Source of the DNA: Amphibalanus amphitrite
Lineage: Eukaryota; Arthropoda; Thecostraca; Balanomorpha; Balanidae
Reading direction: 5' to 3'
DNA length: 64,000 nucleotides
Assembly: GCF_019059575.1 (NCBI RefSeq)
Contig: NW_024883417.1
Span: 25,047 to 89,046, forward strand
Shown: positions 36,827-57,635 of the stretch, piece after piece
Layout of the letters: each line of letters opens with the position of its first letter
Position numbering within the stretch: position 1 is the first letter of the stretch
Program-made: the position numbers and the translations under genes
The notes under the pieces: model-generated
Database searches by the model: none
What the model was told of the DNA's origin: nothing
The model's input: the letters and a program-made list of their open reading frames with translations, nothing else

Positions 36827-36827
36827 C

Positions 36828-37552
36828 CGCAGGTGGCGCCGAGCCTCCGCCGTACAACTGTCCACAGGTGGCGCCGTGCAACTGTCCACAGGTGGCGCCG
36901 CGGCTCCGCCGTGACACTGTCCGCAGGTGGCGCCGAGCCTCCGCCGTGACACTGTCCGCAGGTGGCGCCGCGCAACTGTCCACAGGTGGCGCCGCACCTC
37001 CGCCGTACAACTGCCCACAGGTGGCGCCGAGCCTCCGCCGTACAACTGTCCACAGGTGGCGCCGTGCAACTGTCCACAGGTGGCGCCGCGGCTCCGCCGT
37101 GACACTGTCCGCAGGTGGCGCCGAGCCTCCGCCGTGACACTGCGCAGGTGGCGCCGCGCAACTGTCCACAGGTGGCGCCGCGGCTCCGCCGTGACACTGT
37201 CCGCAGGTGGCGCCGAGCCTCCGCCGTACAACTGTCCACAGGTGGCGCCGTGCAACTGTCCACAGGTGGCGCCGCGGCTCCGCCGTGACACTGTCCGCAG
37301 GCGGCGCCGCGGCTCCGCCGTGACACTGTCCGCAGGTGGCGCCGCGCAACTGTCCACAGGTGGCGCCGCACCTCCGCCGTACAACTGCCCACAGGTGGCG
37401 CCGCACCTCCGCCGTACAACTGTCCACAGGTGGCGCCGTGACACTGTCCACAGGTGGCGCCGCGGCTCCGCCGTGACACTGTCCACAGGTGGCGCCGCGC
37501 CTCCGCCGTACAACTGTCCACAGGTGGCGCCGCGCCTCCGCCGTACAACTGC
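36828..37552. repeat. ~33-bp minisatellite just downstream of the MDR stop codon
   Basis: About 21 units alternating GCCTCCGCCGTACAACTGTC/CACAGGTGGCGCC and GCTCCGCCGTGACACTGTCC/GCAGGTGGCGCC, with some units shortened. It starts about 27 bp beyond the stop codon at 37579, so it would lie in or just past the 3' UTR. It creates very long false frames in several phases on both strands. Confidence 0.95.
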
Positions 37553-37578: not shown

Positions 37579-37710
37579 TCACGTCTCCGGGGCGTCCGGG
37601 ATCGGGTCAAAGTGCAGGATGGCGCGGCCGTGGATTTTGGCGCGGCCCAGCTTCATGAAGACCTCCTCAGCCTTGTCGGACGGGAACAGGTTGTAAGGGG
37701 GCGGCTCCAC
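37579..37710 (-). CDS. MDR exon 9 (terminal)
   Basis: Begins after CCCGGGCAG with [18 protein letters not shown] and ends in TGA at 37581-37579 (residues 348-390). [18 protein letters not shown] is the canonical C-terminal MDR helix and strand (cf. family pattern A-x-x-x-L-x-x-G-x-x-x-G-R-x-V). Three copies of a 17-bp repeat (ACAGTGGTACCGTAACG) lie just upstream of the acceptor (37725-37777). Confidence 0.88.
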   Translation of the reverse strand: MEPPPYNLFPSDKAEEVFMKLGRAKIHGRAILHFDPIPDAPET

Positions 37711-40700
37711 CTGCCCGGGCAGACAGTGGTACCGTAACGTCAGTGGTACTGTAACGACAGTGGTACCGTAACGACAGTAGAAATAAACGCTCGGCAGGCA
37801 AGGGGGTGATGCAGCTCCGTAATGATTAGTCACGTAAGATGCTTAAACGTCATACACAAAAGACAAACACAAGCTTAGTCGCGAGCAAAATAATGTATGA
37901 AAAGTAAACGAAGCATGAAAATATAAGATTATTTACTAGCATCAATTAACCACCGCCCTGGTGGGGTCTGTTTATAACGCGACCTGGTGGGGGGGGGGGC
38001 TATTTTTTGCCCCCCCCCTCGTATCTCCGAAACTACTGGACGGATCCGCAAAATTCAAACGGCGTTCGAAAGGCCTGTCAAATTTGTCGAAGGAAACCAA
38101 ATTTCATTGACCTCGGGGTCACCGATGACGTCACAGGTCAGGTCAAAGATGAAATGTTTCACCGTTCACGGGTCTTCTAGGAAATGCGCTATAACACCGA
38201 GGAAAACGCATTTTGTCGAGAATCAGCGATAGGGCGTCAGTTGCCTAGTAGATATGTTGCTATTAGAGGTCACTGACAATACCAGGTCAGGTCACAGGTC
38301 AGGTCACCAAGGGTCAGCCCAACTTTACTAAGGTTGTGTGATGCATGTTTTATGGCCAATTTTTCATTTCCAACTCAATGGTGTTGGTTATAAGACTATC
38401 AGCTACGGCTTAGGTCACTTTCTGGTGAAGTTCAGGTCAAGGTCAGGTCAAGGTCAGGCCAAAAAAGGTCAAATTTTAAAGTTGATAGTTTTGCATAAAA
38501 TGGGTATTGATTCGATGCCGCTCGTCACGGGGAGTCTAATGGTGGTCTTTGTTTTGCGCTACGGGGTCTATAATTGCTAAAAATTGAGTTTGAAAATTTG
38601 ACGTCATCAATTTTGAACAGTTTTTTCGCTATAACTTCGCCAAAAAAAGAGGTATCAATCTCAAATTTGGTATGTGGATGGAAGGCGGTAAGGACTATCA
38701 CATATATTCCGGTTTTTGCGAAATTCAAAAAACTTTTTGGATTTTTCGATTATTATATCCAAAAAATTTACTTTTTGATTTTTGGGGGTCAAAATCCAAA
38801 AATTTCAAAAATCCGAGATGGCAGTTTTGTAGCCCTGTTGATTCTACATCTTTTATGTTTTATCATTTTTTCTGTATTTGCAAAGCTATAGGCCTGACAG
38901 CTCTTCCCGCGAAACCCTTTTTTGGGTCGAAAACGGCAGAACATGACGTCACTCTGACGTCATTTCCGGCCAACCTATCATAGCCTTTGGAAAAATTTTT
39001 GGTCACAATGTGTAAAATTGATGTCCGGGAGGGTACTGAAAGTTTGGTGACGATCGGCGCAGCAGTTCTGGAGATATAGCGAAAAGTCTGGAGGGGGGGT
39101 GGGGCAAAAAATAGCCCCCCCCCCCACCAGGTCGCGGGTTAATTATGAGCACCTGGCGGTGTCTGCCGGGTCGGTGCGCCGTTAGTTATTTACCTTTTTG
39201 GAGGCGATGAGATGTACGAGTGTGTGCAGCTGCTCGAGGGAGCCCATCTCGACGGGCACGATGGTCTGATCGCTGGCCTGCGCCACGCTCTCGAACCGGC
39301 TGACGTAGCGCTGGGCAGTCTCGGCGCCGATCACGATCACACCGCCCTGCCGCCGCACAAACACAGTTACACACCGCCCTGCCGCCGCACAAACACAGTT
39401 ACACACCGCCCTGCCGCCGCACAAACACAGTTACACACCACCCTGCCGCCACACAAACACAGTTACACACCACCCTGCTGCCGCAAAAACACATTTACAG
39501 ACGATATTCAACACGCTTATAGGCGGCAGTCAAACATACGGACGGTTGTAGCTGATCGCAACTCATGAGATCATGTCAGGTTAGATGGGCGATCTGCTCT
39601 CATGGCTGGACAGGCATCTGAGGAAGCAGTTCACGAAGCGGTTCACGGGGAGGACAGTTCATGGAGCGATTCACGGAGCGGTTCACTGGGCGGTTCACGG
39701 TTCACGGAGCGGCTCACGGAGCTCACCTTGGATAGACACCTGGGCCTCGTTTCATAAAGCTCTGCCGTAACTTACACTTTTCCGTAATTCACACCCTTTC
39801 AAACTACGGAGCGCAAATAAATCCGTTTCACAAAGCCACAACTGGAATTGTTTACACCTCCGTAACTAAGCACATTTGCGTAGTTACCGTAATTTATCAA
39901 GCGTCCTACAAATTACAATTTCATGTCAACACTTATTTTTTACGAGAATTTATAAAACAATTATGTTGAATTTAAATCTTAAAAATTATTTTATGAAAAA
40001 AACAAAATTGATATTGATGACCATCCTTTATTAAAACAATATATTAAAAACAGCAGAAAGCCAGCTAAGCAGAAGTGCCTAACTACGAAAGTGGCGCGGC
40101 GCGGCGAATAAACAAAATTCCTATAGTGGCCACAAAAAGCGACTGGTACAGAAGATTTGCAGTTTCTTTTTCTCATTTTGGCTGTTCTTTCTTCCTCACC
40201 GGGCTCAACATTATAAAATATATTAAAAATTAGCTTCGAATCTTCACATTAATTCAAAATCACGCAACATTTTTGTGCGTAGTTTACACCACTGATATCA
40301 AGAGCTTGATAAAATATTTGGCGTTAATTACGTCGTTTTATGAAACCCAAATGGCATCAATTGGTCCGGAATCTAGCATTTGCCGTAAATGAAGCTCCAT
40401 ACTTTCGATGGCGTGAATTACTCCGGTCTCCGGCTTTATGAAACCGAATTGGCATCAAATACGCCAAATCTGGCATAATTGACGGAACGCCGTAAGTAAT
40501 TCCTTTTATGAAACGAGGCCCTGATGGAGCGGTTCATGGAGTGGTTCACCGGGCGGTTCACGGAGCGGCTCAGGGAGCTCACCTTGGATAGGCACTTGAG
40601 GGAGCGGTTCATGGAGCGCGGGTTGGCAGCGAAGTCGATGATGATGTCGACGTTGCCCTCGCAGGCGTTGATGGTTCGCTCGATCAGCTGGGTCTCGTAG

Positions 40701-43700
40701 CAGTCCTCGCTCCACTGGACGATGTTCACCCTGCCGGGGGCGGCGAGATGGTCAAACGCTGCTCGGACGCGGCGCCAGCCGGCACCCGTGCGAAACTCGG
40801 AACACACACCCCTCCCCCCCCCCCCCCCCCCCCCCCGATAACGTAAATAGTGAAACTTAACACGAAAGCGCATTTTTGACAGGGAAGTAATAGAAGCGTT
40901 GAGGAAAAGTCAACCTTCAAGCGATTAGTTCCATCTGTGCGTTTTGGAACTAAATATTAGAACAGTGATGATGTCATCCTGTGCAACTTGCATTATCTAC
41001 CATGTAGGGGAGAGTGGGGTGGGTTGTATCAGTTTTTACTCCGAGACCCATAACCTCGTAACTATCCGTGATAAACTCATTATTTCCATACTATCCCCTT
41101 CCTTGATTCTTCTGCTTTTTTGTGCAAAGTAACTTTTCCGCTACCTCTACCAGTTTTTCTACTACGGTCTCCCGAATAGAACAATGTTTTTAATACAACT
41201 TGCCCCATGGCTTGGGTGAGTTGTATCACATGGTGGGGTAATTTGTATCACTATTTCACGTTTCAGGGAGTGTGCTTGCTACTGGTTTTGAACATAACAA
41301 CAACATTAAATGGGGTTAATACAATGTGTAGGTATGCTCAAAGGCTTCACTTTATTAGACCAAACTTAGGTTAATGCAATCCGAAAGAAACATCAACAGA
41401 CTAGACGCAAAAGTGGCCCGTTAAGAGCAAAGAAGCCAACACATTGTGCCGAAATGGAACGAGCCTTGACTAGCTACCTACAAACGCGAGCCAGGGCTTA
41501 GCTTTCGCGATGAAAAGCAACATACCCATACATACATACATACATACATACATGTTACAACATACCCCACCCGGCTCTGATACAACATGTACTTCGCCGC
41601 CATCTTGGAAAAAACATCCTCCTGCTCAAAAAACAGCGGACAGCTGGAGAAATCCGTTTTCTCTCACGCAGCCTTAGAACCCACCCTCACCACCGCTACG
41701 GAGATCTTTCAAATTCGTGCACATCTAAATGCCCAAAACACACATTTTCTTGCAACTCATTTTTTAGAATGACATTAAAAAAACATAAAATCGGCTCTCA
41801 CCTCGAGACGCGTCCACTCAGCCACAAGACAGAACAGGGAAAGTTGGCGCCCGGAAAACCTCGTCGGCTGGTCGTGTCGCGAGCGCCATCCATTGGATAA
41901 GTTTGGCACAATTCGCCCAGATACAACTTGGACATGATACAACTCTCCCCGCTCTCCCCTATAGTTAACATAGACAGAAGCGCTTATTCGATTTTGACCT
42001 CGGTGACACTGAAAAACAAAGTGATCCCTCATCCCAGTTTTGTTGACACGTTAACTCAATGTCCTTACAATTGTTCTATTGTAAGGACATGGAGTACCAG
42101 CTGCATCCAGTGACGTCATCAAAGTATAGACATTTTGTCGACACAATTTCCATGTATTTACTGAGCACAAATCGAAAATTAACATTTTATAGGTGGGAAT
42201 TTCTTGGGAAGACTAAGAAGTTGCCCAACCTCACATTGTTTTTAATAAATTTAGTTCGAATGTTTGAATGGACGGTTTGACAGAGCAGGAGCCCATGCTA
42301 AGCAGAGCTTGTTGCGCAGACTGCGACCCCTGCCGTCCGATCGCGCAATTATAGGTAACGGGAGAATTTAGATGACAACATTTACCGTGCCCTTCAAAGC
42401 CGGAGACGGCCTGTCCCACAATCGGGTAAGGAGACACGCCCCGAGGGAAGTTAGCACCGAAAAGCTACGGGCCATGAGTTAGCTAAGGACGGACAATGCC
42501 TACTCAATGTTAAAACAAAGGACTTCGGTCAGGCCGTATAACTACAAATGACACTACTTTATGCATGACATTCAGGAACTGTCACACCGACACGTACACC
42601 AATTACCAGGAATGAAGCATATATGTACAAGGAAAAATGTCGTCCCTGCCTCCATGATTGACATCCATCCGTTATCTGCAACTACAGTCTGCATCCCGGA
42701 GACACGCTGGACGTTAGGTGTGTGTTAGTGAGGTCGACCGATCGAGCCCTCCGCGGATTAGTGGGTCTGGTGCTGTTAGAGGCCAGCCCAGCGGGGTAAC
42801 CCAGCAGGGTAACCCAGCGGGGTAACGCGGCGGGGTAACGCAGCGGGGTAACGCATTGCAGCCGTACCGGCCGTGAATTCCGGGCTCCTCCGACATGTCG
42901 GTGGCGCTGTGACAACCGAAAACAGCATCATCAACGGGCGGCCGAACACAACACAGCCGAAAACAGCATCATCAACGGGCGGCCGAACACAACACAGCCG
43001 AAAACAGCATCATCAACGGGCGGCCGAACAAAACACAGGACAACCGAAAACAGCATCATCAACGGGCGGCCGAACACAACACAGCCGAAAACACCATCAG
43101 TATAGGGCGGCGCGAACAGAGCACAGGACAACCGAAAACAGCATCAGCAACGGGCGGCCGAACACAACACAGCCGAAAACACCATCAGCAAGGGGCGGCG
43201 CGAACAGAGCACAGGACAACCGAAAACAGCATCATCAACGGGCGGTCGAACACAACACAGCCGAAAACAGCATCAGCAAAGGGCGGCCGAACACAACACA
43301 GCCGAAAACACCATCAGTATAAAGGGCGGCTGAACAGAGCACAGGACAACCGAAAACAGCATCAGCAACCAGCGTCCGAACAGAGCACAGCCAGCCGCCG
43401 GGAACACCATCAACTCAGCGATCGAACACCTGGGACAGCTATAACCTGCATCAGGATCCCGGCGGATCAACACAGTAGTCAGCACAACCAGAAAAGTTGA
43501 ATCATGGACCTCTGACACAAACTTATCCATCCCCACGGGGGGGGGGGGGGCTTGGTGATAGCCCCGTGATGGTTTTCGCAATTTCTGCGTACGAAAAGGT
43601 TCAAAGCTCGAGTTGAAAGCCGGTATACCTGACCTCTGGTGGTTAGTCATAGGCGTAGGAACAGGGGGGGGGGGGCAGGTGGGCAAGTGCCCACCCACTT

Positions 43701-46700
43701 TTCGAGGTGGGGGGCCAACCATGTGTTTTGGCCCACCCACTTTTTACTCGAGGCCCCTCGTCTCGATTTGAGAGGACGTCGTCACCTTCCAGAATAAACA
43801 AACTCGGTAGAAATAAGTTCCACGAATCCCCACGCACGGACTCCAAGGGGCCGTGATGGATCCAAGGAGGCCCTCTGTTCATACTTGTCAGTCGAAGCCC
43901 CTGAGACTGATGGCCTGAGAGGCCCTAGTGGATCTGAGGAGGCCCCAATATCCACACTAGTCAGAGGTCTGAGACTGGTGATCTGGGAGGCCCCTCCATC
44001 CACACTTGTCAGAATAGGCCCCTGACACTGGCGGTCTAGCCGAGGCCCCCTACCCTCACTAGTCAGAGGAGGCCCCTCTATCCTCAATAGTCAGAAGAGG
44101 CCCCTGAGACTGATGGTCTGGTAGGCCTATCCATCTACACTGTAGCCAGAGGAGGCCCCTGAGACTGATGACCTGAGAGGCCCTTATAATCACACCAGGC
44201 AGAAGAGGCCCATGAGACTGATGGATTGAGAGGCCCTTCTATTCATACTGGCCACTTGAGACCCCCAAAACTTTCGGTCTGGGAGGTCCCTCAATCCGGC
44301 ACCAGTCAGAAGAGTCCCCTGAGACTGATGGCCTGGGAAACCCTTATATTCACACTAGGCAGAGGAGGCCCCTGAGACTGATGGTATAAGAGGCCCTCAT
44401 ATTCACACCAGTCAGAAGAGGCCCCCGAGGCTGATGGCTGTGAGGCCCTTCTGTTCACATAACTGGCCACTGGAGGCCCCTGAAACCGGTGGTCTGGGAG
44501 GGCCCTCTATCCAAACTAGTCAGAAGAGGCCCCTGAGACCGATGGTCTGAGAGGCTCTTAGGTATATTCATACTGGCCACAAGAGGCCCCTGAGACTGAT
44601 AGTCAGAGAGGTCCACTCCTAATGAATCTGAGGGGGCCCTCTATCCACATTTACACTTTTCTAGGGAGGCCCCCGAGACTGATGGTCTGAGAGGCCCTTT
44701 TATTTATACTGTCCACAGGAGCCCCCTGAGATTAATGGTCTGAGAGGCTATTCTATTTATACTAACCAGAAGACAACAGGCCCTTCTATTTATACTAGCC
44801 AGAGGAGGCCCATGAGACTGATTGTCTGAGAGGCCCTTCTATTCAAACTAGGCAGATGAGGCCCCTGAGAATGATAGTCCGAAGAGCCATGCGGCGGCAA
44901 CTGGCCGTGGCCATATTTCGGCTCGGTAGGGCCCCACAGAGCTCATGAGAGCACCTCAAGGGCTCCTAAGTAGACACGCTTATCCCCATAAGGGTGCCAC
45001 GCCGGCTTCTGAAGGCTCCTTGTAGGCATCTAAGGGCCCCTTCCGGCCTCTAACGGCTCCACCCGCCTGTGATGGCTCCACACCAGTGTTTATGAGCGCC
45101 ACACAGCGGCGCCTTTGAGGGTCATACTAGTGTCTCTTAGGGCCCTATATCGGTGGCTCTGGGGACCCCACACCGGCGCCTCTGTGGGCCACCACACCTG
45201 TGCATCTCAAGGCTCTATAGGTACATCTGAAGGACCCACACCGACACCTCTAAGGGCCCCACACCAGTATCTCGGAGCTCTGAAGGCCCCACACCGGTGA
45301 CTCTGAGGACTTGCACCGGCTCCTGAGAGCACTATGTTGATGTCTAACGGCTCCACAAGGCCACTGAAGGCACCACACAAGCTCTCACTGAGCTTTAATG
45401 TCCATGTACCGGCCTCTGAGGGATTTAAGCCAGCGCATTCATAGCTCCACACCAGCAATTGTAAGGACTTCACACTGAAGTATCTGGGGGTTCCACACCG
45501 GTGTCTCTAAGAGCCACATACCGGCATCTCTGAGGGCCCCATACCGGCGTCTCCGAGGGTCCACATCTGGCGGGCACCCGTCAGCGACTGAAGGTCCCAC
45601 ACTGTCGACTCCGAGAGCCCCATCTGCGTCTGGGAGCAACATGCCGTCTCTAAGAACCACAGCGGCTCCTCCGTCGAAAGATGGGCGTCTGCATGCCAAA
45701 GGGGAGCGGTTCTGAGACAGTAGGGCACCTACGTGCAATAGAGGGGCGCCTATGAAGCCCATAGCGGGCGCCTCAATGCGAAAGAGGGGTGCCTCTGAGG
45801 CCTACCTACATACATATATATGGGCGTCCACATGCAATAGAGGTCTGCGACTGCAATTGATCAATGATCAATGCCATGGGGGACGGGGGTGCATTCGTAA
45901 GAAACAAGGGCGCCGGCATGGCAAAGGGAGGCGCCTTCAAGTGCCCATAAAAGATAGACGCCTATGATAAGCGCACATTGTATGCGACAACTGTGGGACT
46001 GTGGGACATATAGGGATGTCTCTGATGACTATACATAGGGCGCTTATATGCCAAAGAGGGCGCCTATGAAGCTAATGGGGGCACCTGGGAAACGAGGAAG
46101 ACATTTGTACAAGGGTTTTCAGGGGTCATGCGCCGTTTGCGGCAAATAGATTCTAAAAAAAAATCGGAGGGGGAATAAGTTTTAAAAATGGTGCCGACTT
46201 TCCGCACTGTTCGCTTAAGCGGTTACGCCCCTGGGTACATCTGCCCGATCTCAGAAGCTAGATTTGGAGGTCATACTTGAAAGCAGCCAGCAGGACGAGG
46301 AAAAGGTTGGAGGCCCCTGAAAATAGGAGGCCCCCTGGAAAAGGAGGCCCCTTGACAGGGTGGCCCACCCACTTTTCATGACGTTCCTACGCCCGTGAGT
46401 GGTCTTAAAGCTTAAAATTTGGTACCCGTCGCTGCGCCTCGTAACGGCAGACATCCTCTCTTTTCCACGAAGCCCCATCTAAATCATTTGCGAAATGACG
46501 AGGGGTTCGTAACCAGCCCCACTAGGCCCCTCGGCCCTCGGTGTGTAGAACGCGGGTCGGTTCAGGGCAGGTCAGTGCGACTCCCGACTTTGGCCAGCCG
46601 TCAGTCAGTATATACGGTTAGAGCAGCTGTCGGGGACGGTGGTGTCAGGTCAGTGGGGCCGCCGGTGCAGCGGGTCGCGGCGCCCACTCACTTTTGGTGC

Positions 46701-49700
46701 TCCTGCTCGGTGATGCTCTGCAGGCCCTCGTCACGCAGCACCGCCACAGTCAGTCGCACCGCCTGGCCCTCGGTCCACTCGGGGAAGTAGTGGCGCCCGA
46801 TCCGGATCGCCCAGAGCGCCAGGCCGCCCGTGCCCACCACCAGAACGTTCACCTTGCCTGCCGAGGGTGCACCAAACACAATATACAAACACACAGCATA
46901 CAAACAAACACCATATAAACACCCACACATATTTACACCCAGCGACGGCCGACATGGCAGGTGGGGCGCGGGGTCAGCGACACCGGCCCGTCCGTCCAGG
47001 AAAGAACGGGCTGATGACCGAAGGGTCTGATGCTACTCTCACCAACTGCTCAGTCGATGCTCAGTCGAGGACAAAATCTCCTGACAATGAAACGACGTAA
47101 TGAAATGGAAGAAAAAACAAACACTGTTAAAGGCGACCCTAGCACGTCAGCTTTGTCACACAGGGACCGGCGAACAGCCTGCAAGGTGGAGGGTACCTAG
47201 TATCTACATGACTCAGGAGTCCTGGGTAACGAACAGGTCCTTGTCTTGTCTGACGAGGCGGCGGCCCGCCGGTGGGGCTGAACCAGGGAACAGGTGGTCT
47301 GGAGCGGCCTGCCTAGCCGGAAACCATGTGGCTTGGGAGGGAGCCCTATACCCATAACCCGGACCTCACGCACACAACAGCGGCCGGTTCTTGACGTGAC
47401 TGAATGGCTTCCGGGTCCACAAGTTGGATGAAACAGGAGCTGACGGACCTCTGGGTCCCGCCGGGGGAACAGGAGCTGACTGACCTCCGGGTCCCGCCGG
47501 GGGAACAGGAGCTGACGGACCTCCGGGTCCCGCCGGGGGAACAGGAGCTGACTGACCTCCGGGTCCCGCCGGGGGAACAGGAGCTGACGGACCTCTGGGT
47601 CCCGCCGGGGGAACAGGAGCTGACTGACCTCCGGGTCCCGCCGGGGGAACAGGAGCTGACGGACCTGCGGGTCCCGCCGGGGGAACAGGAGCTGACGGAC
47701 CTGCGGGTCCCGCCGGGGGAACAGGAGCTGACGGACCTGCGGGTCTCGCCGGGGGAACAGGAGCTGACGGACCTCCGGGTCCCGCCGGGGGAACAGGAGC
47801 TGACGGACCTCCGGGTCCCGCCGGGGTAACAGGAGCTGACGGACCTCCGGGTCCCGCCGGGGGAACAGGAGCTGATCGGCGGGGACCTCCGGTTCCCCAC
47901 CGATCAGCACCCCGGATACCAATCTGCATCAGCCAAACTCAACCAGACCCCGACAGAACGCTACAGCGAATCGTGCCAGTGTCTTCCCGAAATCAGCCAT
48001 AGCTGACACAGTGTTGGCGACAGAAGCACGCCTCTATCACCCTCCGTGAGAGACGATTCGACAGTGGCCGGGAAACGACAGCTCGGATAGTGCAGACCAT
48101 ATTTTCAGATCGGATTTTAACCACCAGCACCAGTAGAACTTGTTTAAAGTTTAAAAGGCCGAATCTCACAATACCACTGGTGTACTAAACTAACGCCACC
48201 GAACGGGAAAGGTCAAATAAGTACTGAGCATCTGAGGCCGGCTTGTCGTTGGGCCCCGATCGGCGCAGGGTCCAGGACAGGCCGTCGCGCCGGCCGCCGG
48301 CCTGATTTAGCTCGCCTGTCACGGGGCGTGCGGGCGCCCTGTCACCGGGTGGCAGGGCCGGCAGGGTCTCGCGCCGGCCACCTATTTGTGGCTCGCCATG
48401 ACCTCTCTGGCACATCGGGCCGGGAGACAGGGTTAGGTGGGCCTGGCAGTCCAACCAGCAACCAGCCCAGCCCGCCCAGACAGGACGTCTCGACTGACCC
48501 CGGTGCCCTCCGCAAATCAGACGGAAAAGCCTATCCAGAATGTGACGGCTACGACCTCGAAAAGGTGGCACAGACCCACATAAGCTGCCGCCAGGAAGGA
48601 ACTGCGAGCCATCGCATATCACGATGGCTACGCTGCTGCATTCCTCGATAATCGGACAGATACCTCACGGAGGCGATTTTTAGCACTCGTCTCGACGACT
48701 TCACCGGGATTGATACACTAACCGCACGTCGGCACACTAGAGAATGAGTTCATGTAACCAGAAAGCCAGAGACTTCTATATCCCACAGCTTTCAAGGACA
48801 GAGCCGTCAGGATGAGAGCAGACAGCTACAGCTCTGTGTGTAGTTACCTTTGTCGCCGCGCTCTTTCAGCAGCTTCTCGACGTATTGTCTGGCGGTGAAC
48901 ACAGAGTTCATGGCCCACAGGCCGCCGCTGGGCAGCATGGAGGCCACCGGCATGGGTACCTCGTCCGGCACCTTGACCAGGTACTGGACGTCCTCGACGG
49001 CCACGTACTCGGCGTACCTGTCGGGAGTCGGCGGCGGGGGGGGGGCGTCAGAGGACCGTCAGAGGACTGTCAGAGGGACAGACAGAGGACAGACAGAGGA
49101 CAGACAGAGGGACCGTCAGAGGGACAGTCAGAGGGACAGACAGAGGGACAGTCAGAGGGACAGACAGAGGGACAGACAGAGGGACAGTCAGAGGGACAGT
49201 CAGAGGACAGTCAGAGGGACAGTCAGAGGACAGACAGAGGGCAGTCAGAGGGACAGTCAGAGGGACAGTCAGAGGACAGTCAGAGGGACAGTCAGAGGAC
49301 AGACAGAGGGCAGACAGAGGACCGTCAGAGGGACCGTCAGAGGACCGTCAGAGGACCGTCAGAGGATAGTCAGAGGACCGTCAGAGGACCGTCAGAGGAT
49401 AGTCAGAGGACCGTCAGAGGACCGTCAGAGGGACAGTCAGAGGACAGTCAGATGACCGTCAGAGGACCGTCAGAGGGACAGACAGAGGGACAGTCAGAGG
49501 GACAGACAGAGGACCGTCAGAGGGCAGTCAGAGGACCGTCAGAGGGACAGACAGAGGACCGTCAGAGGGACAGACAGAGGACCGTCAGAGGGACAGACAG
49601 AGGACCGTCAGAGGGACAGACAGAGGACAGTCAGAGGGACAGACAGAGGGACAGACAGAGGGACAGACAGAGGGACAGACAGAGGGACAGTCAGAGGGAC

Positions 49701-52700
49701 AGATAGAGGGCAGTCAGAGGGCCTCTGTCACCCTCGCCTTGGGAGGGAGCTCACCCAGGTACAGACCCATCAGAGCAGCGTTTCGCCGAGAAACGTGCTC
49801 GCTTTGTTATCAGAAACACAGCCTTCACGGTCATCTCATAGTCATCCTAGACATTTCTTAGAACGGCGTGGTGAATGAATAAAGCCGTTAAGTTATCAAG
49901 GTTATATAAGTATTTTTTTCATTGGTGATAAACAGCAAATAACTGCAAAAAAATGCACATTGTCACTCACCCTTCGGGACATCCTATGTACGGGTACACA
50001 ATGACATTGTCGCCGACCTTCAGACCACATTTCGGATCCACATTTTCACCGAAGCTCTCAATCTGACCGGCAACCTCGAAACCTGCAACACAAGGCCGGC
50101 GTTCATTACCGAGCCGTGCCGCACAATCATCCGTAGGTCGTCTCAGAGGGTTGTTATCACGCGTTTTAGCAGCTAGCGCCTGCCAATACATAACCATAGC
50201 TGATAGGGCCTATAGAAAAGACTGGTAGCTAGGGAAACTGGCATCTCAGTGTTCAACATACATCGCATGCATATTACAGGTCAACTAGTCAAACTGTAGG
50301 TCAACTAGTCAAACATTACAATAACAAGTATTGCACTTATCTGTACAAATGTCAAAAACAAGTCTACATATATATCGTATTTCGTATTTGGGTTTATCAT
50401 TGTTAAGTTGTTTTAAAATGGATGGTGGCTGCCTAAATCTTAGGTCAAACAAGTTGTAGGACGTGAGCCAACAGCAATAGTCCAGCGCGGCCCGATTCGG
50501 CACATTAATCGCCAGAAGGTCGAGGGGAGAAGACATTTACTAAAATTACGCCGGAAACTGAGCAATGGCCAGACGTGTGTGTAACGTAACGCGTTTACAT
50601 AGTTTACTGTGCCAGGGACTCAGCACGTTCCCAGTGACCCGGCCAACGGTCAACGCCCCGCAGCGCCACACCGCCACTGGTCAGGGACGTCCCAGACGGG
50701 GTGAGTGGACATATTGGTAAGAGCTAGTAACATCCCAGACATGATAAAATGCAGGCGCCCGGTGTCCTATAGCACCTGAGCTCGTCATTGTTAACGGCTG
50801 ATCCGATTCACGAGAAACAGATTTTGATACTTCTGATTCAAACGTGGCTTCCCAGCGTCACTTCCAGTTCCAGGCACCCACCGGGAACAATCAACAGAGA
50901 CGTGTCCCCAGACACCCACCGGGGAACAGTATAGTGTCGCGCACACCCACCGGGGAACAGTGACGTGTCGCACACACCCACCGGGGAACAGTGACGTGTC
51001 GCGCACACCCACCGGGGAACAGCGACGTGTCGCGCACACCCACCGGGGAACAGCGACGTGTCGCGCACACCCACCGGGGAACAGCGACGTGTCGCGCACA
51101 CCCACCGGGGAACAGCGACGTGTCGCGCACACCCACCGGGGAACAGTGACGTGTCCCCAGACACCCACCGGGGAACAGTGACGTGTCGCGCACACCCACC
51201 GGGGAACAGCGACGTGTCGCGCACACCCACCGGGGAACAGCGACGTGTACACCCACCGGGGAACAGTATAGTGTCGCGCACACCCACCGGGGAACAGTGA
51301 CGTGTCGCACACACCCACCGGGAAACAGTGACGTGTTGCGCACACCCACCGGGGAACAGTGACGTGTCGCGCACACCCACCGGGGAACAGTGACGTGTCG
51401 CGCACACCCAACGGGGAACAGCGACGTGTCGCGCACACCCACCGGGGAACAGCGACGTGTCGCGCACACCCACCGGGGAACAGTGACGTGTCGCACACAC
51501 CCACCGGGGAACAGCGACGTGTCGCGCACACCCACCGGGGAACAGCGACGTGTCGCGCACACCCACCGGGGAACAGTATAGTGTCGCGCACACCCACCGG
51601 GGAACAGCGACGTGTCGCGCACGCCCTTGTTGCTGCAGCTCGAGTGGTCGGAGCCGATCGAGGAAAGCGATGCGCCGCTGTTGATCGACATGGAGCGCTT
51701 CGAGCGGTAGCACACGCCGGCACACATCACCTGCGGGCAAAGCACAGGGAAAAGAAACTCAGCACGGTAGCACACGCCGGCACACATCACCTGGGGGAAA
51801 ACACCGGAAAAAGAAACTCAGCACGGTGGCAAGCGTTCGGTAACTGACCGGAGGGAAAACTCGCCACTGTAGTGCACAACTGCGCGTATACACCTGTGCA
51901 CCTGAGAAGGGACCGGATGGAAAACTCAGCAGCCAGCGCGCTATGAACTTCAGTGCGTCTACTGCTGAGATCATTTTGCTCTGATTAACAATAATTTTGA
52001 ACAAGTTGAAAATATAATATGTGGATGTTGGAATCTACGCATGGTAAAATGTTTGCGGGGCGAGAGTCCATGAGACCAGTGACTGGCGAGACAGCCGTTT
52101 GCGGACGGAGGTCAGCGGCCGCCTCTGTCGGTGACCGAGTTGAGTTAGCATGGCTGAAGCTGGGCCCGAGCGTCATGACCGCGGGCTCATGTCAGAGACA
52201 CCGACGGACGCACGGCGCCCACTGCCAAACGACCTCTCTGGCCCGCCTCCAAAGACGCCGGCCATGGCGCCGGGACTGACACCACCTCCTCCTATATTCG
52301 CAGAAGGAACGCCTCGCTCTCATAAATAGGGTGAGGCTGCAGCAGTTGATGTGTGACAGGGGCCTTAGCACCACCCAGGGCACCTGGAGTTCGAATAAGC
52401 AAGGGAAGAAGCAAGGAAGCATACCTATTCTAGCTGCAGCGTATATGAATCCTGTTTAGACCAAAGTCCAGCTCGGCGACAGCTAACTATATCGACAGTT
52501 TGCCCAGGTCGCCGTCATCGCGTCCCGTCGGGTCTGAGCCCGGCCCCGCCCGCAGTGGGCAGTATAGGTACACACACAGCCCACCCTGCAGCCGTTATAT
52601 CGCCCCGTGGGTGGGGTCGGAGGGATACTCTGCCGTCCGCCCGCCGTTGCCGCAGTCCACCGGCCAGTTGTCGCCTGTGGGCCGCCATCCATTGCCGCCG

Positions 52701-55700
52701 TGCCCTGCGCACCTCTCCTGACAGCGAACCCAGCCTGAGCCGCTCCCACGCTGCAGTCGACGCCCGACGCCGGCGGTACACGGTCCACAGCCAATCTGAT
52801 GACGTCACGCCACGGAGTGCACAGGCCGCCCGGCGACAGCGGCCGGCGAGCGGGCACGGCAAGCTGCGGGCGCCGGAAGCCCAGCTCCGGGAGCGGTAGG
52901 CTGCGGCCTGCGGGCGCCGGAAGCCCAGCTCCGGGCGCGGCAAGCTGCGGGCGCCGGAAGCCCAGCTCCGGGCACGTCAAGCTGCGGGCGCCGGAAGCCC
53001 AGCTCCGGGCACGGCAGGCTGCGGGCGCCGGAAGCCCGGCTCCAGCTTCAGCTACTGCCATAGCGGCCGAGAGAGTCGTCCTGTCATACGTCCGCCGTCC
53101 ACAAGCAACCGTCCACCGTCCGTCCATAATCAACCGTCCACCGTCCGTCCACAATCCACCGTCCACCGTCCGCGTCCCCCGTGTCCGCTGTATCCGTTGT
53201 GTCCCCTGTACCCGTTGTGTCCCCTGTGTCTGTCAGTGTACGCTGTGCCCGCTGTGTGCGCTGTGTCCGCTGTGTCCGTCGTCACAGGGAGGGAGGCTCA
53301 GCGAGGGAGCGTCTGCCGCCGTGTGACCTTGATTTGCGCCATGGTCGGTGCATCTCGCGAGTGGGCGACACGTGCACAGTGCACAGTGCACAGTGCAGGC
53401 CACATCGCCCGGCCGCCGGCGGACCGGGACGGACCGGGCCGGGCCGGTGCGGCGTCCGTCGGCTCGCGGCGTCTGCGCAGCATACCCGGAGCTGACTGGC
53501 CGGAGGGCTGCGCCTGCCACACCTCCGCAGACGATACGACCGCACCGAACAAAAATATTGATACGGAAGATTCAATAAGAGACAGTTTTCTATAAAAAGC
53601 AAAAATAACATTACGCAAATCCAGTTCACAAAAGTACTGAGAAGAGGCGGTAAATTCGATGCAAGCCGAGCGTGTGTTTATTGGCGGCTCATGTCGGCCG
53701 CACTGGCTGATGCAACACATAACATCCCGCTCATTGCCCAATGCACTTTTCACAGCCCTGCTCATTCCTTTCATTAGGTTTGCCTGCAGAGCTGTGAATT
53801 ATGGATCAGATCAGAGTTAAACAAAATTTAAAGTTCTGGGATTTTATCAAATCCATCTTAGTGTGACGCTTGTTATTATTTGCGCTTTACGCAAAATAAG
53901 TCAATATTAATGAATGAAAATTCAGTCATCAAATAAGCCGTTAAATACGTAGGTTAACCCGCGCACCGACGGGGGTCTGCGCCAACTTCGCACCGACGGG
54001 GGGGGGGCGGATGACCGCCCCCCCCCTGAGATCTCGAGAACGAAGCAAGATAGCGACAAGCGGTAAACGGCATCGGATACGCACGGCCAAGATCTACAAT
54101 TTTTACAAAGGTCATTTTCAGGTCAGGTCAAAGATGACGTCACAGGGGTCGAAAAAGTCAAAATGGCGGCGCTAGATATGGAGAGTTTTTCTCGAATAAC
54201 TTTCGAATTAGTCAAGATAGGAACACACTAAGGGCATCATCGTGATCCTCTCGTCAATCCGCATCGAATATATATGTTGACCTCGAAAGGTCAAGGTCAA
54301 AGGTTGACCTCAGGTCGCGTGACCTCGAGGTCATCATGTATATCATTCGATGCGTCTTGACGAGCTGAACACAATGAGACCATCCACGCGTCTGTATCTT
54401 GTTCCTGTACGGAGTTATTGGCCAAAACCCTTTGGTGACCTTTGATGACGTCACATGACCTCACAGCTGCCCAACAGCAAAACAGACCTCAAGGTAGTGA
54501 AGGTTGATCGTATATGAAGTCATGTAAAGTATATGGGGCCATTCCGACCCGTTTTAGTGGTAAAAACAGGGAGTTGATTTTTCCCCCATTGACTTATAAT
54601 GGGGAGGTCGCGAAATTGACCTGACCTTAGGTCACCGATATCAAAATTCCGAGATATACAAATTGTAGCTACTAATGACCTAGTAATATCCTGCGACTTT
54701 CAAAGGCCTCCGAAATCTACTGTAGCTGTGGCACGGTGACAAAGTTGCAAAAAAGTGACTTGAGGCTGGGTCATTCAAAGTGACCTGGTGACCTGACCTT
54801 AAAAGGTAGGAAGTTCAAACTTGCACACCATGTGTAAAATTGATGAGGTTATAGTCATACCAAATTTCCGGTTTTCCCGCTATTCGCGAAAAACCTCAAG
54901 GGGGGCGGATATCCGCCCCCCCCCCCCCCGTCGGTGCGCGGGTTAAATCAGCAACCACAGGAGCAGGGGTGTCCGCTGTCCAGTGTCCACTACTCAACAC
55001 TACTAATGGGTCGTCATCGGTATTCAGTCAGTAGTGACTCCAAATTTCAATTTGATTCTGACCTACCAACTCCAGACTAAGCATCTGAGCATATCGTGTC
55101 AAGCGTGAAAACCAAGCCAGCAAGACGTTCAGCAGTGGCAGCTACCACCTACATATGTATGTACGCCTGCCGCATAATTCAACAAAAATACATGTCTGCC
55201 TTGGTTGAGTGACACCCTCCGGCTCGGGTGTGGGCCACTACAGGGGCCCCGAGGGCACCCAGCCAGGCGCCGCTCAGACTCACCCTGATCCGGGCGCCGG
55301 AGGGCGACGCTGGGACTCACCCACCCTGATCCGGGCTCCCGAGGGCGCCGCTGGGACTCGACTCACCCTGATCCGGGCTCCGGAGGGCGCCGCTGCGACT
55401 CACCCTGATCCGGGCTCCGGAGGGCGCCGCTGCGACTCGACTCACCCTGACCCGGGCTCCGGAGGGCGCCGTTGGGACTCGACTCACCCTGACCCGGGCT
55501 CCGGAGGGCGCCGCTCAGACTCACCCTGATTCGGGCTCCGGAGGGCGCCGCTGAGACTCGACTCACCCTGACCCGGGCTCCGGAGGGCGCCGCTGGGACT
55601 CGACTCACCCTGACCCGGGCTCCGGAGGGCGCCGCTGGGACTCGACTCACCCTGACCCGGGCTCCGGAGGGTGCCGGCCCCACACCTCACCCTGACCCAG

Positions 55701-57635
55701 GCTCCGGAGGTTGCCGCTGGGACTCGACTCACCCTGATTCGGACTCCGGAAGGCGCCGGCCACACCTCACCCTGACCCGGGCTCCGGAGGGCGCCGCTGC
55801 GACTCACCCTGATCCGGGCGCCGGAGGGCGGCACCTCCGGCATGGGCACGTCGAAGTTGAAGACGCACCCCTTCATGGTGGGTCCCGGCGACTCTATGCT
55901 GACCTGGTGGAGCGGCATGCCGCGCTTCTTCCTCTCACTGCTGACACACAGAGGGGGGGGGGGTTGTCAGAAGAGGGGTGTCAGATGGAGGGGAGGGGAG
56001 ACGGCGTCAGTCTGGGGGAAAGGCAATGTCAGTCGGGGCGGCGGGGGGCTGTCAGTCGCCGGGAGACGCCAGTTCTCAGACAAGCATCTGTTCGCGGCAG
56101 CGGCAGGATGTCCCCGAGACCCCAGTTCGTCACACAAGTCAGTTGGGAACAGACCTAAATCTATTGCGGCAGGATGTCACTGAGACCCCAGTTTGTCACA
56201 CAAGTCAGTCAGGAACAGACCTAAATCTGTTCGCGGCAGCGGCAGGATGTCCCTGAGATGGAACTTGCGGTGTTCTGTAATGCATACATAGGTACCTACC
56301 GTGAAAAAGATAAACGAGGAAACTAAGAATTAGATAGACATACTGAGAAGGAAGACCATAAAACCGTAGAGAGACAAAACACACACACAAAAAGAGGCGA
56401 TATACATATGTATGCACTATACAATTGCATATTATCCTTCGCAGATTGAAGTCGAATGTTCAATGGGCATTGGGGAGCGCTTCGCTAAATTGCTCTCAGC
56501 ATATGTCATCATCATCAAATAGCAGCCCGCTAGCATCAGACACCACACCTCCCATGTGAACATGGAGCGAACACAGCGGAACTATAGTTAACCAGCTGAT
56601 GACATGACTAATGACAGTTACCTGCCGGAATCACAACGTTTACCAATTACCTCATGATGGCCGTACAATCCCTTCCCCAGCTGGCGAAAGGTCGCTGCTA
56701 CTCTGTGACCCCGGCAGGGCACGGCGTCACTGTTCGGCGGCGGCCGCGCTGGTGTCACTGTGCCGTGCTCCGACCCACGCCCACCACACGGCGGCGCCGA
56801 CTGGCGCGCCACAGCGGACCGACCGACCGAGGCGCCCGGCCCGGGCCGGCCGGTCCGGCCCGGCCCGCGCCGCGGGGAGGGGAGGGGGCGCTGCGCAGTG
56901 GGCCGGCCCCCTGACAGGCGCTGCGCTCAACTGCAGGCCACGGTCCCGGGTACGGCGGATACCGGAGCGGAGGGAGGACGTCCTGCTCTACACTCTACAG
57001 TCTCCACCCGACCGAACCGCCTCAGTCCATCCGCTGGCCGCTATCGGAATAGACGTGAGCCATTTCCGACACGACCTGGACGAAATCCAGCGCGGCGCGC
57101 ATCCGAACAGCCGCAGACTCCATACTGCTCATTGAAAACACCCAGCGCGCTCAAATCGTGCGTCAAAATGATGCTCACGCATGGATGCCATTCCGACCCA
57201 GGTATCGGACAGCGGAAGCCAAGGTTGAGTCTTGCTGCAGGTTTATGGTTCAGGTACCCCTCATATTTTGAATCAACAGCGAAGCAGACTATTTTCGTGG
57301 CAAGATTGAAACACGAATGGTTTGCAAAATAAATAAGCGAGCAACTAACCGATCACACTAATTCCTGCAAAATTTGCGGTACGTTAAAAAAATAATGGTG
57401 CAACAGCAAATATTTTGAGAAGCATTAATTTCAGGTTAAAGAGCTGAGGGAGGGGGGTGTCAGATGACCTTTCGCGCCTTGCAAACGCCGTCCAGCTGAC
57501 CCTCTGCCCATTATCAGACACATAGCCGGGCTACGAAGCCACATCAGTCGCTGGTAGCAACAATCATCACAGGGACGGCGTCATCCGAACCCAACATGGT
57601 TTTGGTTACTGCAGTGGAGACAGATGCCGCGACAT
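37579..57635 (-). CDS. Nine-exon medium-chain dehydrogenase/reductase gene
   Basis: Joining 57635-57610, 55940-55808, 51730-51598, 50082-49971, 49017-48848, 46857-46692, 40730-40583, 39346-39194 and 37710-37579 gives 1173 nt with every phase matching: 390 residues plus stop. It is an MDR-fold oxidoreductase. The N-terminal GroES-like domain (about residues 20-185) carries GVCYR (Cys60, the position of the catalytic zinc cysteine) and GFEVAG (98-103), with Phe where zinc enzymes have His. The Rossmann domain has GTGGLA (200-205), a [10 protein letters not shown] strand and GGVIVIG (297-303). The cysteine-rich structural zinc lobe is missing. It is probably a cytosolic NAD(P)-dependent reductase; the substrate is unknown. 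If translation starts in exon 2 (55918) the protein is 374 residues. Several splice junctions are tandemly repeated (see findings). Confidence 0.88.
37725..37777. repeat. 17-bp tandem repeat upstream of exon 9 acceptor
   Basis: Three copies of ACAGTGGTACCGTAACG, starting about 15 nt from the exon edge in intron 8. Confidence 0.85.
37950..39138 (+). mobile_element. TTAA-family element inside intron 8
   Basis: TTAA 37946-37949 and 39139-39142. The right end is ...CCACCAGGTCGCGGG. The matching left-hand CGCGACCTGGTGGGGGG begins at about 37978, preceded by an extra CCACCGCCCTGGTGG copy, so the left terminus is doubled. G-run/CTATTTTTTG/C-run and its inverse lie near the two ends. It is the best copy of the type also seen at 9813 and 12942. 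No coding capacity. Confidence 0.85.
39194..39346 (-). CDS. MDR exon 8
   Basis: 153 nt, phase 0 at both ends, residues 297-347 starting [17 protein letters not shown] (the conserved glycine turn after Rossmann beta-5) and ending in a Lys-Lys before GTAAAT. Its acceptor lies within the first unit of a 32-bp tandem array. Confidence 0.9.
39341..39500 (-). repeat. 32-bp array of repeated 3' splice sites at exon 8
   Basis: Five units on the minus strand, each containing TTTGTGCGGCGGCAG/GGCGGT or a diverged version: the acceptor plus the first exon bases, followed by GTGTAACTG. The innermost unit is the true exon 8 edge. Confidence 0.92.
39590..39742 (-). repeat. Duplicated exon 7 end plus donor, with GTGAACCGCTCC repeats
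   Basis: The minus strand reads GTGTCTATCCAAG/GTGAGCTCC, a copy of the exon 7 3' edge and donor, followed by degenerate GTGAACCGCTCC dodecamers. The MITE at 39743-40520 separates it from the real exon. Confidence 0.8.
39743..40520. mobile_element. MITE with GGCCTCGTTTCATAAA ends, CTG flanks, in intron 7
   Basis: Inverted ends GGCCTCGTTTCATAAA/TTTATGAAACGAGGCC with CTG at 39740-39742 and 40521-40523. The interior has many CGTAACTTAC-, CGTAATT- and ATGAAACC-type internal repeats. It inserted into the repeated donor region of exon 7. Confidence 0.87.
40583..40730 (-). CDS. MDR exon 7
   Basis: 148 nt, residues 247-296: the end of the coenzyme-binding domain, including [19 protein letters not shown] (Rossmann beta-4 strand and following helix). 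The donor CCAAG/GTGAGC is followed at once by GTGAACCGCTCC-type repeats derived from the exon's own ATGAACCGCTCC. Confidence 0.9.
40811..40837. repeat. Long C homopolymer run
   Basis: About 27 near-consecutive C bases, a likely assembly-sensitive site in intron 6. Confidence 0.9.
41007..41959. mobile_element. TA-flanked element copy 2 (uninterrupted)
   Basis: GGGGAGAGTGGGGTGGGTTG...CTCCCCGCTCTCCCC with TA at 41005-41006 and 41960-41961. It is collinear with 28488-30474 and has an unoccupied TTAA where that copy carries the 28790-29821 element. CATA microsatellite at 41526-41552. GCCGCCATCTTGG at about 41597. Confidence 0.92.
42059..42090. repeat. 13-bp perfect hairpin
   Basis: ATGTCCTTACAAT (42059-42071), loop TGTTCT, ATTGTAAGGACAT (42078-42090). 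Confidence 0.9.
42786..42856. repeat. 13-bp tandem repeat (CAGCGGGGTAACG)
   Basis: Five units of CAGCGGGGTAACC/G in intron 6. Confidence 0.9.
42912..43415. repeat. ~41-bp minisatellite (CGAAAACAGCATCATCAACG)
   Basis: About twelve units of CCGAAAACAGCATCATCAAC / GGGCGGCCGAACACAACACAG, with longer variants containing GAGCACAGGACAA. Intron 6. Open frames here are artefacts. Confidence 0.93.
43648..46397. mobile_element. hAT-like element with minisatellite interior (no clear TSD)
   Basis: Ends CATAGGCGTAGGAAC and GTTCCTACGCCCGTG are inverted repeats with two mismatches. The flanks do not show a clean 8-bp duplication. The interior is nearly all degenerate array: AGGCCCCTGAGACTGATGGT-type units at 43830-44900 and GGGCCCCACACCGG/CTCTGAGG units at 44950-45830. 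It is similar in plan to 2452-4436 and 23146-25163. Confidence 0.65.
43830..44900. repeat. Degenerate ~50-bp minisatellite (AGGCCCCTGAGACTGATGGT)
   Basis: Around 18 diverged units with CCTGAGACTGATGG and GAGAGGCCCTTCTATTCA-like parts, inside the element above. Confidence 0.85.
46692..46857 (-). CDS. MDR exon 6 (Rossmann motif)
   Basis: 166 nt, residues 192-247. [20 protein letters not shown] is the first beta-alpha-beta unit of the NAD(P) site with glycines at 200, 202 and 203. The acceptor CCCTCGGCAG is preceded by TGTTTGTATG-type repeats. The donor AA/GTGAGT splits a Lys codon completed by exon 7. Confidence 0.92.
47440..47875. repeat. 36-bp minisatellite in intron 5
   Basis: About twelve well-conserved units GGAGCTGACGGACCTCCGGG/TCCCGCCGGGGGAACA. 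36 bp is a multiple of three, giving collagen-like and other false frames on both strands. No splice-site content. Confidence 0.95.
48848..49017 (-). CDS. MDR exon 5
   Basis: 170 nt, residues 135-192. [20 protein letters not shown] is the conserved AEY-x-V-x-x-x-x-L-x-x-I/V-P segment linking the two MDR domains. [11 protein letters not shown] corresponds to the helix before the Rossmann fold. The acceptor CTCCCGACAG is followed upstream by a long TC-rich repeat. Confidence 0.92.
49044..49722. repeat. 12-15-bp array (GGGACAGTCAGA) abutting exon 5 acceptor
   Basis: About 50 short units GG(G)AC(A/C)G(T/A)CAGA. On the gene's strand they read CTCTGACTGTCC, a pyrimidine-rich tract 680 bp long beginning about 27 nt upstream of the exon 5 splice acceptor. 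The open frames are artefacts. Confidence 0.95.
49971..50082 (-). CDS. MDR exon 4
   Basis: 112 nt, residues 98-135. [15 protein letters not shown] is the MDR GHE-x-x-G strand with Phe in place of His, then [17 protein letters not shown], which goes straight on without the four-cysteine zinc lobe. The acceptor GTGTTGCAG/GT completes the Gly codon begun by the exon 3 donor; the donor is GTGAGT. Confidence 0.92.
50200..50860. other. Part of intron 3, nothing further supported
   Basis: Unique sequence with duplicated GGTCAACTAGTCAAAC at 50278-50313. Confidence 0.5.
50885..51622 (-). repeat. 31-bp array of repeated 5' splice sites at exon 3
   Basis: About 23 units. On the minus strand each reads GTGCGCGACACGTCGCTGTT then CCCCG/GTGGGT: the last 25 bases of exon 3 plus its donor. 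The first unit is the genuine exon edge. Two or three units are variants with ATAGTG or CCCCAGACA. No frame contains a stop on the gene's strand. Confidence 0.95.
51598..51730 (-). CDS. MDR exon 3
   Basis: 133 nt, residues 54-98. [13 protein letters not shown] includes the MDR GVC motif. A serine-rich stretch ([12 protein letters not shown]) follows, and VRDTSLFPG leads into GFEVAG of exon 4. The donor G/GTGGGT is chosen because it joins in phase to exon 4 and gives the expected PG-F-E sequence. The same donor is repeated downstream every 31 bp. Confidence 0.9.
51731..51805 (-). repeat. 60-bp duplication of the exon 3 acceptor
   Basis: A second acceptor (TTTTCCCCCAG) followed by GTGATGTGTGCCGGCGTGTG lies 60 bp upstream of the one used in the model. 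60 nt is in frame and stop-free, so using it would add 20 residues, repeating VMCAGVCYR. Confidence 0.88.
52855..53045. repeat. ~37-bp minisatellite (GCTGCGGGCGCCGGAAGCCC)
   Basis: Five units of CAAGCTGCGGGCGCCGGAAG followed by CCCAGCTCCGGGCACGG in intron 2. Confidence 0.92.
53095..53285. repeat. CCGTCCACCGTCC and GTGTCCGCTGT simple repeats
   Basis: Two adjoining degenerate short-unit arrays. No coding support. Confidence 0.8.
53958..54941 (+). mobile_element. TTAA-family element in intron 2
   Basis: TTAA 53954-53957 and 54942-54945. CCCGCGCACCGACGGGGG and inverse ends ...CGTCGGTGCGCGGG. Hairpins G-run/CGGATGACCG/C-run and G-run/CGGATATCCG/C-run. GGTCAAGGTCAAAGGTTGACC and TGACGTCAC motifs inside. 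984 bp, no genes. Confidence 0.92.
55230..55815 (-). repeat. 42-bp array of repeated 5' splice sites at exon 2
   Basis: About 14 units including the real one. On the minus strand each holds GCCCTCCGGAGCCCGGGTCA then GG/GTGAGTC: the last coding bases of exon 2 plus its donor. Most units are 42 bp, some 33-36 bp. The exon frame stays open from 55918 to 55484, reading a repeated GARVRVSR motif. Confidence 0.94.
55808..55940 (-). CDS. MDR exon 2
   Basis: 133 nt. SERKKRG, then [19 protein letters not shown] and [12 protein letters not shown] up to donor AGG/GTGAGT. The Met at 55918 is an alternative start. The acceptor TGTGTGTCAG/C joins in phase with the small exon at 57610. [15 protein letters not shown] corresponds to the usual first strands of an MDR (K-A-x-V-...-P-x-P-x-P). 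Confidence 0.85.
55941..57605. other. Intron 1 with GC-rich island, no further gene supported
   Basis: Contains a G-rich stretch at 55951-56060, a twice-repeated AGGATGTC/CAGTTCGTCACACAAGTCAG unit (56085-56250) and a GC-rich island at 56700-56960. The open frames at 56611-57332 lack any recognisable domain. Confidence 0.45.
57610..57635 (-). CDS. MDR exon 1, small initiating exon
   Basis: ATG at 57635 gives MSRHLSPL plus two bases before donor A/GTAACC. It is the only nearby upstream ATG-donor pair that I found which joins exon 2 in phase. TATA-like sequences lie 30-60 bp upstream. It is short, so the evidence is phase and promoter context only. Confidence 0.5.

Follow-up and report, generated by a model that had tools for sequence, protein, structure and literature searches.

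Several splice junctions of a single gene in the barnacle Amphibalanus amphitrite have become units of tandem repetition. The gene, an MDR (ADH-like) gene whose reading frame is intact across eight exons, exons 2 to 9, lies on the minus strand of a 64,000-nucleotide stretch of DNA, which we refer to as the window. Other genes of this genome have similar arrays where an exon ends. We consider it likely that they are junction-spanning minisatellites, tolerated since the splice site nearest the exon body is the one that is used.

The exon 3 donor lies in a 24-site tandem array

A first-pass annotation of the window had described a 5' splice site repeated about 23 times in tandem at exon 3 of the MDR gene, in 31-bp units holding the last 25 bases of the exon and the donor GTGGGT, and our analysis bears this out. 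Exon 3 ends in ...CTGTTCCCCG|GTGGGT, and its final 25 nt together with these six intron bases make up the unit. Tandem Repeats Finder (TRF) reports the array at 50893..51626 (period 31, 23.8 copies, score 1177), and a listing of the sites themselves gives 24 donor-like sites, from 51597 (D1, next to the exon body) to 50881. The sequence CCG|GTGGGT is present at 23 of these, the only site without GT being D7 at 51411 (TTGGGT). Spacing is 31 bp save for one interval of 26, one of 32 and one of 38 bp, and a degenerate unit precedes the final site. The predicted pairing of the exon 3 donor with U1 is -8.1 kcal/mol, middling for this gene (range -5.2 to -9.6). No copy of the exon 4 acceptor, TGTGTTGCAG|GTTTCG, was found in the window strand searched, and the acceptor of this intron was not copied from the array unit. 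The features concerned are as follows.

51598..51730, minus strand: exon 3, from acceptor A2 to donor D1, encoding ...VRDTSLFP
50881..51622, minus strand: exon 3 donor array, 31-bp unit of 25 nt of exon 3 end plus GTGGGT (TRF and site listing)
49971..50082, minus strand: exon 4 (GFEVAG...), its acceptor outside the array

The innermost donor had been said to join exon 4 in phase, and indeed D1 and exon 4 read on in frame as ...DTSLFPGFEVAG, giving PGFEVAG. The sites that keep this frame are D1, D4, D7 (no GT), D10, D15, D17, D20 and D23, that is, 7 of the 23 GT donors. The proposed rule that every third unit restores the frame therefore holds as far as D10 and breaks after it, because spacings of 26, 32 and 38 bp occur. 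Use of the six alternative in-frame GT donors (D4, D10, D15, D17, D20 and D23) would add 93 to 678 nt, or 31 to 226 aa, adjoining a conserved motif. The other 16 GT donors shift the frame and run into two stops in exon 4, the last of them meeting a third stop in the array tail. That all three frames are stop-free across the array is true up to D23, but it tells us little, because 31 equals 1 modulo 3, so that every frame runs through an identical set of codons, and because 63% of units still lack stops in every phase after shuffling. We accordingly reject selection for open frames in the array. Splice-site columns vary less than the others in the exon 3 array (1 change in 9 columns versus 38 in 22) and in the corresponding exon 2 array described below (3 in 9 versus 68 in 33). 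We do not claim selection on donor columns, as 4 of 31 circular windows in the exon 3 array and 3 of 42 in the exon 2 array are equally quiet.

Joining exon-proximal sites yields an intact MDR protein

When exons 2 to 9 are joined at their exon-proximal sites, a single open frame with 0 stops results, and GT-AG is present at all internal exon borders. The remaining exons of the gene model are listed here; no exon 1 was identified for the MDR gene.

55808..55940, minus strand: exon 2
48848..49017, minus strand: exon 5
46692..46857, minus strand: exon 6
40583..40730, minus strand: exon 7, donor at 40582
39194..39346, minus strand: exon 8
37579..37710, minus strand: exon 9, including the stop codon (stop at 37579)

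Counted from the first ATG, the protein is 374 aa long, and it resembles its family. It matches two Pfam domains above the cut-off, ADH_N (PF08240, E 4e-7) and ADH_zinc_N_2 (PF13602, E 3e-9), with a match to PF00107 below it, and the solved structures that it matches are distant MDR enzymes (among them 2h6e, E 5.6e-7, and VAT1L, 4a27, E 6.5e-4). The segment spliced through D1 aligns to VAT1L without a gap. The first-pass annotation had placed the array in a loop before the active site, but zinc ADHs carry the catalytic-zinc motif GHE, and this motif was not found in the MDR protein, which has PGFEVAG at that place. These residues align with PGFECSG of VAT1L and include GFE, as VAT1L does, not GHE.

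Further junctions of the MDR gene are multiplied

The first-pass annotation was right to see the splice junction as what had been amplified, and this holds for other junctions of the MDR gene too, donors and acceptors alike.

55266..55830, minus strand: exon 2 donor array, 14 donors (AGG|GTGAGT, GTGAGG or GTGGGT) spaced 37-42 bp, the unit holding the last part of exon 2
51705..51831, minus strand: exon 3 acceptor duplication, a 60-bp tandem of pyrimidine tract, AG and 26 nt of exon
39715..39738, minus strand: repeat of the end of exon 7 with its donor at 39726, TGTCTATCCAAG|GTGAGC
39338..39499, minus strand: exon 8 acceptor array, with acceptors every 32 bp at 39474, 39442, 39410, 39378 and 39346

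At exon 2, 13 of the 14 donors read AGG|GTGAG and one reads AGG|GTGGG. The upstream copy of the exon 3 acceptor, at 51790, is in frame and would add 20 aa without a stop. Every exon 8 acceptor copy carries a tract, AG and approximately the first 9 nt of exon 8; joining at any of the four upstream acceptors gives ...CLSKGGV-stop, with an immediate in-frame UAA. The word GTAACT, which we take to resemble a branch point, is found in four of the five exon 8 units, the first unit having GTAAAT. At exon 7, a 12-bp array begins 4 bp inside the intron after the donor at 40582, and the second copy of the exon end and donor lies 856 bp downstream of the first, past an inserted element of about 790 bp (39737-40526). 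This element has 22-bp inverted ends (39737-39758 and 40505-40526; 91% complementary) and splits the exon 7 donor array in two. Three other arrays stop just short of acceptors, with 29 bp between a 12-bp array (49047..49721) and that of exon 5, 15 bp between a 15-bp array and that of exon 6, and 11 bp between a 17-bp array and that of exon 9.

To gauge this clustering, we ran TRF on the gene strand from exon 2 to exon 9, which yielded 25 arrays. Four overlap an exon by at least 6 nt (0.65 expected, P 0.003), and eight have one of the 14 internal junctions no more than 30 bp away (1.4 expected, P at most 1e-4). In the least favourable version of the latter comparison, with the exon 3 donor array that had been given at the outset left out and placement matched for GC content, 7 of 24 arrays are still near a junction against 1.53 expected (P 6e-4). 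When junctions were used as probes, 5 of 15 had extra copies, namely the exon 2 donor, the exon 3 acceptor and donor, the exon 7 donor and the exon 8 acceptor.

A second contig differs in the length of the exon 8 array

We searched a genome assembly of 807.55 Mb in 2644 contigs, in which the window lies in contig C1920. Contig C759 holds a second copy of the MDR gene, 99.56% identical to the window with 12 mismatches over 20.7 kb. The exon 2 array, the 24-site exon 3 array, the exon 3 acceptor and the exon 7 donor region are all identical between the two, and identity falls to 93% from about 39.4 kb onward. There the arrays differ in length: exon 8 has five acceptors in the window and nine on C759, where seven of the eight upstream ones lead to GGV-stop. 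From this pattern of identity we read the two contigs as probably representing one shared haplotype and then two different ones; the C759 copy of the exon 3 array appears to belong to the haplotype seen in the window.

Donor arrays follow exons of other genes

To look beyond the MDR gene, we searched the genome for CAGGTGAGT occurring three times with gaps of 15-45 bp, which gave 184 matches, versus 75 for the backwards pattern. The matches listed cover 26 places, or 22 distinct arrays once those on C161, C214, C478 and C513, which repeat another's unit, are set aside, and it is to these 22 that the following counts refer. For each, we read the exon side as far as the first donor. In six, the first donor ends an exon supported by homology: FoxP, an SDF-type transporter (twice), Ric8, an importin repeat and PI3K (PI3Ka). 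The FoxP exon matches FOXP4 (E 0.0018), and its next exon (AIIESPDKQLTLNEIYSWF; AIIESPDKQLTLNEIY) lies 405 bp past the last donor, in frame with the first; the second and third FoxP donors keep the frame as well. Three further arrays have weak exon-side matches, to TRIM_CC (0.0088) and a WD40-type domain (0.016), both below the cut-off, and to KIF14 (0.11). The transporter exon was met on two contigs, C205 and C214, whose exon sides differ at 4 of 300 nt; the arrays that follow have one unit in common but are not equally long, with 6 versus 16 listed matches to CAGGTGAGT.

The periods of these arrays are divisible by three in 5 of the 22. At the six loci measured, the exon sequence inside the unit is shortest in FoxP (5 nt) and longest at locus L028 (about 44 nt), and, among eight donor arrays whose frame is known or apparent (exons 2 and 3 of the MDR gene and six loci), an open in-frame second donor is found only in FoxP and at locus L024.

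A search led by a protein family rather than by arrays was made with aldehyde dehydrogenase, scoring 12 of 152 candidates; these 12 loci represent 7 distinct exons by our own pairing. One of the seven has a 32-bp array of 9.3 copies beginning at the donor, a count that may be low, as the wrong strand was apparently taken at some loci. In this array the donor is GTCAGT, present in about nine copies on contig C139, whereas the similar exon on contig C135 has about two units.

Controls and points against the pattern

As a control, we scanned stop-free stretches of at least 45 aa within 300 nt beside arrays against Pfam, blind to their origin. The donor side comprised 91 stretches from the upstream flank of the 22 donor arrays, and the control side 70 stretches from both flanks of nine reverse-word arrays (of 11 places listed, those on C194 and C329 were omitted as repeats). 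Strong matches were found in four donor-side stretches (SDF twice, Ric8 and PI3Ka) and in two control-side stretches (GMC oxidoreductase and myosin head); among weak matches (E 0.001-0.008), DUF6093 and HEAT came from donor-side stretches, PHD_2 and Plasmodium_HRP from control-side ones. The reverse word is not a clean control because it contains TGAGT, and both strong control matches, on C270 and C437, are exons that end in front of arrays holding GTGAGTGG donors. On C437, the exon encodes part of the myosin heavy chain head, ends in ...YFIKLIY and passes straight into a repeat with such donors.

A number of points weigh against a general association of arrays with splice junctions. The clustering statistics all come from one gene, and the exon overlaps weaken when the exon 3 donor array is left out (3 versus 0.61-0.73 expected, P 0.02-0.035; GC-matched 0.73, P 0.035). 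For 588 (24%) of 2437 sampled intron positions, a repeat copy lies no more than 2 kb away, and therefore the five multiplied junction probes alone are no clear excess over background. In the genome-wide set, no family support was found on the exon side for the other 13 of the 22 donor arrays, five of which (L026, L035, L050, L070 and L074) look non-coding by eye, and the rates of strong Pfam matches beside donor and reverse-word arrays show no clear difference. Moreover, triplets of CAGGTAAGT show no excess over those of its reverse (14 versus 38), so being a strong donor does not by itself always lead to amplification. We considered enrichment of triple donors at the word level and rejected it as proof: the excess for CAGGTGAGT stands beside the deficit for CAGGTAAGT and 9 versus 124 for GTGGACATG and its reverse, and with ratios in such conflict, word counts alone prove little.

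Surroundings of the MDR gene

No convincing second gene was found in the window by a codon scan trained on the MDR gene alone, and an Rfam scan of the window gave no match at the gathering score. No relatives of the MDR protein were confirmed among the genome contigs searched, and a plasmid search with the protein returned 36 distant records, every one below 60% identity. Beginning about 30 bp past the stop codon, in the presumed 3' untranslated region, is an array with a 94-bp unit (36795-37547, 7.9 copies, score 1207) with shorter sub-repeats inside. A repeat family starting GGGGAGAGCGGGGAGAGTTGTATCATG has two copies in the window, at 41000-41960 and 28490-30480, the latter broken up by another repeat rich in GGTCAGGTCA.

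Origin and consequences of the arrays

How might such arrays arise and persist? A short tandem duplication straddling an exon-intron boundary would duplicate the splice signal along with the end of the exon, and slippage or unequal exchange may then have multiplied the copies. The copy next to the exon body, which is the first donor of a donor array and the last acceptor of an acceptor array, would still make the correct mRNA. The remaining copies would then be putative decoy splice sites in the intron, whose occasional use would mostly lead to premature stops. Since the proximal copy is first among donors but last among acceptors, a simple first-transcribed rule fails to cover both, and we infer that it may be chosen through exon definition (pairing across the exon), with the arrays largely passengers.

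Alternatively, the arrays could generate isoforms, as the first-pass annotation had proposed, several exon 3 donors being used so that proteins vary in the segment before GFEVAG. This is weakly suggested by the sequence: all 23 GT donors share CCG|GTGGGT, and with it the same predicted U1 pairing, six alternative donors are in frame and stop-free, the upstream acceptor of exon 3 and the second and third donors of FoxP also keep the frame, and human IFI6 uses two downstream repeat units as donors, according to passages of PMC4526556. However, 16 of the 23 GT donors shift the frame, units free of stops are expected by chance, and any insertion would land in a segment that aligns gap-free to VAT1L. 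Together with array periods that show no preference for multiples of three and exon 8 acceptors that mostly give an immediate UAA, this leaves the earlier expectation that many donors would give readable products unsupported, and we regard isoform production as unlikely. That the arrays ignore frame, both in their periods and in the scarcity of open second donors, makes tolerated boundary-straddling duplications the better explanation.

The decoys might instead act as an expression rheostat, diverting some transcripts into products subject to nonsense-mediated decay, with array length tuning output between alleles. The exon 8 array has features that would suit this role, including its own tract and AG in each unit, the branch-point-like word in four of five, immediate stops from four of the five acceptors in the window and from seven of the eight upstream ones on C759, and five versus nine copies between contigs; the frame-shifting exon 3 donors, with their stops in exon 4, would suit it too. 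Neutral arrays would give the same pattern, though, and decoy use is putative; we find a rheostat unlikely. It is very improbable that the assembler simply multiplied repeat units. The assembly does contain redundant contigs, as the 99.6% likeness of the window and C759 over 20.7 kb attests, but units differ by substitutions and indels, like arrays are found at unrelated exons, and the 24-site exon 3 array is identical on both contigs, although the two may derive from the same reads.

If the arrays are indeed tolerated minisatellites that span junctions, they show how a minisatellite can arise at a splice signal and carry it along. It is possible, and we offer this tentatively, that splice junctions are preferred birth sites of minisatellites in the A. 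amphitrite genome, or that arrays which keep the signal are preferentially retained, and that a sizeable share of genes has donor or acceptor arrays variable between alleles. The spliceosome would then have to pick the exon-proximal copy systematically, and the copies might even form a "landing field" that strengthens exon definition. Work on how one of several equal splice sites is chosen usually relies on engineered duplicates. Arrays of near-identical donors or acceptors at conserved exons (FoxP, myosin, PI3K, Ric8), with lengths varying between contigs, would provide a natural experiment on this choice, from which proximal-site preference, exon definition and the cost of decoys could be read.

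Comparison with known systems

The human gene IFI6 (6-16) contains a minisatellite with multiple donors, of which two downstream repeat units are used, giving three mRNAs (as related in passages of PMC4526556, citing Turri, Cuin and Porter 1995, NAR 23:1854). Like it, the exon 3 array begins at the exon end and repeats a donor-like site from unit to unit (24 in all, 23 of them with GT). Unlike it, the arrays described here are found at several MDR junctions, both donor and acceptor, and where exons of other genes end; their extra donors are putative, known from sequence. In a potato RdRp gene, a tandem duplication across an intron-exon boundary led to the gain of an intron (PMC4974935). The exon 3 and exon 8 acceptors of the MDR gene likewise show boundary-crossing tandem duplication that carries splice signals along; whereas the potato gene had one duplication and a new intron, here there are many copies within an existing intron and no sign of a new one. 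In the literature surveyed, which was thin on subscription journals, we found no report of such arrays at splice junctions genome-wide, and none from barnacles.
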